NCBI GenBank assembly: GCA_018701395.1 | Contig: JABIWU010000003.1 | Span: forward strand, 1-64,000 | Origin: Phycisphaerae bacterium | GTDB taxonomy: Bacteria; Planctomycetota; Phycisphaerae; Phycisphaerales; SM1A02 | Direction of reading: 5' to 3' | Length of the DNA stretch: 64,000 nucleotides | Shown: piece by piece, positions 60,089-61,142 of the stretch | How the letters are laid out: each line of letters begins with the position of its first letter | Numbering within the stretch: position 1 is the stretch's first letter | Notes under the pieces: generated by a model | What the model saw: only the letters and a program-made list of their open reading frames with translations | Told to the model about the DNA's origin: nothing | The model's database searches: none | Translations under genes and position numbers: made by a program

Positions 60089-60120
60089 TTGCAAAATGGG
60101 GAAAGTTGGGGTACTGTGGG
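60089..60120 (+). promoter_or_regulatory. mraZ promoter with three TGGG operator repeats
   Basis: TGGG occurs at 60097, 60107 and 60117, a strict 10-base period, so the repeats lie on one face of the helix. The first two are in the 17-base spacer between TTGCAA (60089-60094) and TACTGT (60112-60117) and the third follows. MraZ of other bacteria binds such TGGGN repeats in its own promoter and represses it. Confidence 0.8.
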
Positions 60121-60153
60121 GGCGATTGGTAATGAAGAACCCAAAAGCACACC

Positions 60154-60615
60154 ATGTTAATTGTAGGCGAAACAGCACGATCTATCGACGAAAAACAGCG
60201 AATCTCTATACCAAAAGAGATGCGAGAGTTTTTTGCAATGGAGAATGGGCCAAGTATTGTCTATGCAACACCAGGAGCAAATGGCTCAATTTGGTTATAT
60301 CCAAAAGCGGCGTTCGAATCCAGAGCGAACGTGATGGAAAACTCGCTACTGTCCAACGAGGACGAAATGGAACTCGAGCAAATACTGTTCTCTCAAACGA
60401 CACGTCTCGAGATCGACAAGTCGGGCAGAATTCGATTGCCCGAAGTATTACTCTCCTTCGTTGGAATAGATGCACAAGCAATACTGTTAGGAGTTCGGGA
60501 CCATCTCGAAGTGGTCAACCCAAAAAATTGGGAAGTGCAGAAACGAGAGGGATTACCAAAACTGAAAGAAATAATGGCTCGAATCAGAAACAAAAAAGAG
60601 GAAAAACCCTGCTGA
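60154..60615 (+). CDS. mraZ: Transcriptional regulator MraZ
   Basis: 153 residues. Two SpoVT/AbrB-like swapped-hairpin units: SIDEKQRISIPKEMREFF near 10-27 with SIWLYPKAAFE, and LEIDKSGRIRLPEVLLSFV near 85-103. These are the two DXXXR-type MraZ repeats. It controls the division and cell-wall cluster in other bacteria. Here the next gene is not rsmH/mraW; a hairpin-rich non-coding stretch follows. Its operator lies directly upstream. Confidence 0.92.
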   Translation: MLIVGETARSIDEKQRISIPKEMREFFAMENGPSIVYATPGANGSIWLYPKAAFESRANVMENSLLSNEDEMELEQILFSQTTRLEIDKSGRIRLPEVLLSFVGIDAQAILLGVRDHLEVVNPKNWEVQKREGLPKLKEIMARIRNKKEEKPC

Positions 60616-60647: not shown

Positions 60648-60918
60648 GCTGAGCAAGGACGCTCGGCTCGCAAGGGGGAGGGCGTCAGGGACGATGCAAC
60701 CACCTTGCATGAAATATACGCAGTAAATACTGCATAAAGTGAGTCAAGGATGACTCGCAAACGAGAAAGTGCCAGCACGGACGCACGGCACTAATCAACC
60801 CTGGTTCTCGACTCAAGACCGAGTCGAGAACTATTCCTCAAGTCGGTCGAGCGAAATGCTCGACTACCTTCCCCTTTGACCCTCGGCATGACCCACCACA
60901 TGCCGCGGGTCATTTTTT
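60648..60918 (+). ncRNA. Candidate CsrA-binding structured RNA
   Basis: About 270 bases with a chain of hairpins on the plus strand. Three show GGA in a hexaloop: AAGGAC on a 7-pair stem (60648-60667), AAGGAT on a 7-pair stem (60739-60758) and ACGGAC in a larger hairpin (60768-60792). AAGGAT matches the ARGGAU of the CsrA SELEX consensus. Other stems are ATGCAA/TTGCAT (60694-60710), GCAGT/ACTGC (60720-60733), an 11-pair stem with loop AAGACC (60804-60831) and GTCGAGC/GCTCGAC (60846-60864), then a strong terminator. csrA lies immediately beyond, on the opposite strand. It may be a CsrB-like sponge or the mraZ 3' leader; the 5' end is not defined. Confidence 0.55.
60877..60918 (+). terminator. 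Rho-independent terminator
   Basis: TGACCC-T-CGGCATG and CATGCCG-C-GGGTCA pair over 14 positions with one mismatch around an 8-base loop, followed by six T. It ends transcripts coming from mraZ and the candidate RNA, facing the 3' end of csrA. Confidence 0.9.
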
Positions 60919-60923
60919 ATGCA

Positions 60924-61142
60924 CTATTTGTTTGAAGCTGGGCGAATTTTACCAGCAATTGCAGGGCCATTATTGGTAATTTCTTCAGCAACTTCATGCC
61001 GATGAACAGGGACCTCTCTTGGGAAATCGAATGCAATTCGAACTCGGTCGCCTTTGATTGAGGCAATGCGAACAACTCCTAGTGGATTTGCTGGATCCCC
61101 TATAACAACCTCTTCCCCTTCTCTTCTTGTAATCACGAGCAT
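60924..61142 (-). CDS. csrA: Carbon storage regulator CsrA
   Basis: 72 residues. MLVITRREGEEVVIGD start, IKGDRVRIAFDFP centre and VPVHRHEVAEEI are the CsrA core; the VHR segment holds the RNA-contacting Arg. CsrA binds GGA motifs in mRNA leaders to repress or stabilise them. An AGGAGG eight bases before the ATG is itself preceded by ACA, so the Shine-Dalgarno could be a CsrA site for autorepression. No flagellar gene is near. Confidence 0.95.
   Translation of the reverse strand: MLVITRREGEEVVIGDPANPLGVVRIASIKGDRVRIAFDFPREVPVHRHEVAEEITNNGPAIAGKIRPASNK

Follow-up and report, generated by a model that had tools for sequence, protein, structure and literature searches.

A candidate CsrA-sequestering RNA element downstream of mraZ in Phycisphaerae

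The mraZ-csrA2 gap and its RNA element

The window, by which we mean the whole 64-kb stretch of DNA that was analyzed, is part of a 1.9-Mb Phycisphaerales genome (Planctomycetota) that encodes two csrA genes. The second of these, csrA2, is convergent with mraZ, and 308 nt separate the two stop codons. Aligned to solved CsrA, the CsrA2 protein retains the residue matching E. coli R44 and has I in place of L4. The + strand of the gap folds into a chain of hairpins (folding energy -127 kcal/mol, z = -9.7), and the ORF listing of the gap contains no long ORF, ruling out a protein-coding reading of the array. The element comprises four GGA hexaloop hairpins, three GGA-free hairpins and a terminator that ends at 60918; the hexaloops run in the order AAGGAC, AGGGAC, AAGGAT, ACGGAC and form two pairs. 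An earlier note had described a chain of hairpins with a strong terminator between mraZ and csrA, which held, and three GGA hexaloops (AAGGAC, AAGGAT and ACGGAC), all of which are present, but its count was wrong, as AGGGAC makes four. The features are as follows.

60097-60121, + strand: three TGGGG direct repeats with a 10-nt period, 5' of mraZ; MraZ-box-like operator
60154-60615, + strand: mraZ, 153 aa (Pfam PF02381, E 2.9e-16); probable co-transcribed gene 5' of the array
60648-60667, + strand: hairpin 1, hexaloop AAGGAC at 60655-60660; predicted CsrA site, loop ANGGAN in 10/10 congeners
60670-60708, + strand: hairpin 2 on an outer helix, hexaloop AGGGAC at 60687-60692, in GCGTC-AGGGAC-GATGC; predicted CsrA site
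60720-60733, + strand: hairpin 3, GCAGT/ACTGC, without GGA, between the two GGA pairs; covarying helix 5
60739-60758, + strand: hairpin 4, hexaloop AAGGAT at 60746-60751; predicted CsrA site
60768-60792, + strand: hairpin 5, with an internal loop, hexaloop ACGGAC at 60777-60782; predicted CsrA site, covarying helix 7
60802-60833, + strand: hairpin 6, 13 bp, without GGA, structural; covarying helix 8
60833-60842, + strand: conserved ATTCCTCAAG, mostly single-stranded (congener alignment)
60845-60865, + strand: hairpin 7, without GGA; covarying helix 9
60867-60874, + strand: conserved C-rich single strand CCTTCCCC; CTTCC motif in relatives
60877-60918, + strand: intrinsic terminator, stem-loop 60877-60912 and U-run 60913-60918, with the conserved loop CCCACCAC at 60892-60899
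60924-61142, - strand: csrA2, 72 aa, divergent CsrA paralogue (PF02599, E 7e-16); convergent neighbor and proposed target

Three conserved single strands, ATTCCTCAAG, CCTTCCC and the CCCACCAC terminator loop, contain no GGA. The CTTCC motif lies roughly 19-25 nt 5' of CCCAC in 24/40 convergent loci, and it is possible that the C-rich strands are base-pairing seeds for Shine-Dalgarno sequences, although such pairing is untested. A terminator was detected 3' of the array in 33 of 50 csrA-adjacent loci and went undetected in the other 17. The terminator loop CCCACC is retained in many genera although the stem sequence varies.

Repeats of TGGG with a period of about 10 nt precede mraZ in 29/30 relatives checked, as a triple in the window's own genus and in a two-repeat form in most other genera of its family. 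The triple pattern has only two matches in the window's genome, one 5' of mraZ and one on C19; the latter overlaps a reading frame that has no apparent connection. The TGGGG repeats 5' of mraZ resemble MraZ boxes and are putatively assigned as such; our literature search on MraZ-box identity returned nothing. In the genus, the array starts about 12-38 nt past the mraZ stop. No promoter-like or sigma-70-like consensus site was found on the + strand from mraZ to hairpin 1, which is a weak test. Because MraZ-box-like repeats lie upstream and no promoter-like site intervenes, we infer a single transcript that carries mraZ and the array. In the absence of expression data, this co-transcription is likely rather than established; no + strand promoter signal favors the mraZ-independent transcript raised in the earlier note.

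Conservation, hexaloop counts and distribution

The whole element could be aligned across ten congeners, for which RNAalifold predicts 74 pairs, 40 of them with both sides changed and pairing kept. In this alignment 95.7% of helix cells are paired, and any slid register pairs less than 45%. Two-sided changes occur in 101 cells against 31.7 in shuffles, with a covariation score of 0.48 against 0.27, and none of 500 shuffles reached the observed measures. All four loops read A-N-GGA-N in 10/10 congeners while the stems vary compensatorily. The earlier note had proposed covariation among relatives as a check, and had held that unconserved GGA loops would refute the element; the stems covary and the loops are strongly conserved. 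The distance from GGA to GGA within each pair is likewise constant in all ten congeners, at 32 nt in the first pair and 31 nt in the second, whereas the linker from one pair to the next is 59 or 65. CsrA reportedly bridges sites separated by 10-63 nt (PMC7652899), and two modules that each span a dimer would call for just such a fixed pair spacing and a linker free to vary.

Strict ANGGAN hexaloop hairpins are far more frequent 3' of mraZ than composition predicts. The 90 Phycisphaerales loci examined contain 191, against 1.86 expected from dinucleotide shuffles, and the reverse strand of the same loci contains none. Among hexaloop hairpins with stems of at least 5 Watson-Crick pairs in csrA-adjacent loci, 104/245 are ANGGAN, as compared with 0/206 on the opposite strand. 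The closing pair of the loop in these loci is C-G in 130/139, the sixth loop position is a pyrimidine (C or U) in 121/139, and position 2 is free. The CsrA SELEX ligand (preference RUACARGGAUGU) shows this pattern, as does the ANGGAN hexaloop to which RsmE binds (PMC7652899). Elsewhere in the window, such hairpins number one on the + strand and three on the - strand, all isolated. A chance or compositional origin is rejected by the shuffles and the reverse strand, and also by the regions upstream, the flanks of csrA2 and the mraZ loci from outside the Planctomycetota. The richest array seen, in L110 (genome G065), packs seven such strict hairpins into about 600 nt 3' of mraZ.

A covariance model of hairpins 1-5 matches all 13 genomes of the genus (E < 1e-32) and scores weakly, mostly at the equivalent position, in other genera of the family; in the window's genome it finds a single match and no second copy. 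No match to the element was found in the plasmid collection searched. Beyond the order, 40 loci from the rest of class Phycisphaerae contain 54 ANGGAN hairpins against 1.8 expected, with none on the reverse strand. Counts are at background in 40 loci of planctomycetes from other classes (5 hairpins against 2.7 expected) and in 36 non-planctomycete mraZ loci (1 and 2 hairpins on the two strands). Array size varies from 0 to 7 per locus, and several csrA-bearing loci have no hairpins after mraZ (f4, f7 and some of f8 and f11).

The position beside csrA, emphasized in the earlier note, held only in part. Adjacency of csrA to the array is a trait of the window's family; in other families the hairpins follow mraZ and csrA lies elsewhere, and in five loci checked from other orders the gene 3' of the array is rsmH of the dcw (division) cluster. 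Where csrA2 sits apart from mraZ in Phycisphaerales, its flanks contain almost no hexaloop hairpins, so we reject the view that the element belongs to csrA and conclude that it tracks mraZ.

The presence of csrA and of the array coincide in part. In family f16, csrA was undetected in 6/6 genomes (G110, G119, G127, G139, G145 and G151) and hexaloop arrays follow mraZ in 0/6. Among csrA-bearing Phycisphaerae outside the order, 40/53 have hairpins (Fisher p 0.003 against csrA-less genomes), a test that reflects mainly one clade and not many independent events. An exception is G117, which has hexaloop hairpins and in which csrA was not found (the genome is 87% complete). The sequences themselves show the loops, the covarying stems, the fixed spacing, the terminator, conservation throughout the class and, in one family, the absence of array and csrA together.

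CsrA paralogues, FliW and known CsrA-binding RNAs

The gene fliW adjoins csrA1. Genomes of the window's family that lack csrA1 also lack FliW and retain csrA2 and the array, which suggests that CsrA1 with FliW serves flagella and that CsrA2 acts with the RNA. The pairing of CsrA2 with the array is not exclusive, because nearly all genomes of family f5 have csrA1 alone and some hairpins are still present there. In two genera, flagellin genes adjoin fliW-csrA1 and have their Shine-Dalgarno sequence inside an AGGGAG or AAGGAG hexaloop:

L133, 874-900, - strand: flagellin Shine-Dalgarno hexaloop hairpin, predicted hag-type CsrA target in Planctomycetota
L134, 883-910, - strand: flagellin Shine-Dalgarno hexaloop hairpin, predicted as for L133

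We infer from their sequence that these hexaloops are an in-lineage example of the same type of CsrA site. The fliW-csrA1 gap of the window's genome (L001, 1690-1720, - strand) holds an AGGGAA hexaloop hairpin, a possible site of csrA1 autoregulation.

With the CsrB/CsrC and RsmX/Y/Z/W RNAs of Gammaproteobacteria (Rfam clan CL00106) the element shares repeated GGA in hairpin loops and an intrinsic terminator. Those RNAs are stand-alone and controlled by GacA/UvrY, whereas the element in the window is linked to mraZ, has four sites with fixed pair geometry, lies in a different phylum and occurs together with FliW. CsrB has about 18 CsrA sites. The element has no Rfam match at gathering score or at E up to 10. 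A locus from another family, L162, aligns with the full length of the Rfam CsrB model (positions 1-356; E 2e-7) at 37.1 bits, below the gathering score of 71, so that neither it nor the window's element meets the score for membership of the clan. Hairpins of the GTCGCAGGATGCGAC type recur in the mraZ-rsmH gap of L162 and L163 and share their CAGGAUG core with E. coli CsrB.

Two predicted, unvalidated CsrA-binding RNAs are described outside Gammaproteobacteria, TwoAYGGAY and Bacillaceae-1 (PMC4333381); they come from Clostridia and from Bacillales/Lactobacillales, unlike the Phycisphaerae array. TwoAYGGAY (RF01731) matched none of the loci searched, and the sole match to Bacillaceae-1 (RF01690) was on the reverse strand of L162 (E 0.08). 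The hag leader of Bacillus subtilis, acting with FliW-CsrA, has its likeness in the window's lineage in fliW-csrA1 and the flagellin Shine-Dalgarno in an ANGGAG hexaloop, but it is a cis target with a protein antagonist, whereas the element carries several sites on one RNA and adjoins the gene of a second CsrA. The flagellin mRNA of Campylobacter jejuni (PMC4894983) is comparable as a coding transcript tied to CsrA activity; in the window the sites instead form a dedicated, covarying, terminator-ended array past the stop codon.

Proposed function, alternatives and significance

The element has the sequence features expected of a CsrA-sequestering small RNA: multiple ANGGAN loops, a non-coding sequence with a terminator, and a genome that encodes a CsrA with RNA-binding residues. 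It does not meet the criterion for a cis CsrA site of mraZ, which would overlap or flank the ribosome-binding site, since its sites lie past the stop at 60615 and before the terminator. CsrA binding, titration, co-transcription and the identity of the CsrA bound are all inferred. That CsrA binds the array is, in our judgment, very likely even without binding data; that the element is a CsrA-sequestering RNA with titration as its main role is likely, in the absence of data on transcript, stoichiometry or binding. The CsrA-sponge reading put forward in the earlier note is supported, with binding and titration still inferred and without experiment.

We propose an RNA of about 270 nt with two modules, each of two ANGGAN hexaloops 31-32 nt apart. 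One CsrA dimer could bridge each module, giving a capacity of about two dimers per molecule. The array would be the 3' part of the mraZ transcript, which would begin at a promoter with MraZ-box-like repeats and end at the intrinsic terminator, and RNA output would follow MraZ autoregulation. More RNA would draw CsrA, most plausibly the neighboring CsrA2, off its target mRNAs. There is no cis target 3' of the array here, as the next gene is convergent. Strong titration would need high abundance, because four sites are few compared with CsrB and a mraZ 3' UTR may not be abundant.

One alternative, less likely but possible, is an independent small RNA gene transcribed from a promoter that lies within the end of mraZ; it overlaps the titration reading and differs in the promoter alone. 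In its favor, a T-rich GATTTCTA-like stretch lies 5' of hairpin 1 in several congeners. Against it, no sigma-70-like site occurs on the + strand, and a weak helix (helix 1) may join the GATTTCTA-like stretch to GAGAA 3' of hairpin 4, which would place the stretch inside the transcript.

It is less likely that the hairpins are simply the mraZ 3' UTR, where CsrA would stabilize or destabilize the mraZ message without titration; an extension to other orders, in which CsrA binding affects read-through into rsmH, is similarly improbable. This view gains from the array always following mraZ, near the stop and with no + strand promoter-like site between, and from rsmH of the dcw cluster coming next in other orders. 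However, up to seven sites per locus (L110) and an invariant pair spacing in the genus exceed the usual need of a cis switch, normal cis sites overlap the ribosome-binding site whereas those of the array lie between stop and terminator, and L162 resembles a whole CsrB. An effect on mRNA stability of sites past the mraZ stop is possible and is not excluded. A third view, that the hairpins are recognized by some protein other than CsrA or serve an unrelated structural purpose (protection of the mraZ 3' end, for example), could appeal to the lack of direct binding data and to the 3/7 hairpins without GGA, but is very unlikely given that the loop consensus, C-G closing pair, loop size of 6 and pair spacing fit CsrA/RsmE preferences, that f16 lacks both csrA and the hairpins, and that there is a partial Rfam CsrB match.

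Beyond the titration reading, a bolder one can be framed: a class-wide Csr circuit in which the 3' UTR of an MraZ-autoregulated mraZ message is a CsrA trap. Cell-division control would be tied to CsrA2, flagellar CsrA1 would be handled separately by FliW, and the conserved C-rich single strands (CCTTCCC and the CCCACCAC terminator loop) would give the RNA a second function in base-pairing with mRNAs. We consider this reading possible but less likely than not.

CsrA-trapping small RNAs had been identified only in Gammaproteobacteria, plus two unvalidated predictions from Firmicutes (PMC4333381, 2014), in agreement with the premise of the earlier note that titrating RNAs are mostly gammaproteobacterial. 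We found no description of a CsrA-trapping RNA from Phycisphaerae or Planctomycetota in the open-access literature searched. By inference, the element probably represents a CsrA-titrating RNA in a phylum without apparent earlier description of one, CsrB-like in its working and below the Rfam CsrB score. Gammaproteobacteria lack FliW, whose occurrence is anti-correlated with that of BarA-UvrY, and whether FliW and small RNAs act jointly on CsrA is undetermined in any species (PMC7652899, a 2020 review). With FliW, the array and two CsrA paralogues together in Phycisphaerae, the question of joint action becomes directly testable. The array is also suggestive of a connection between MraZ, an ancient division-cluster regulator, and the global post-transcriptional regulator CsrA.
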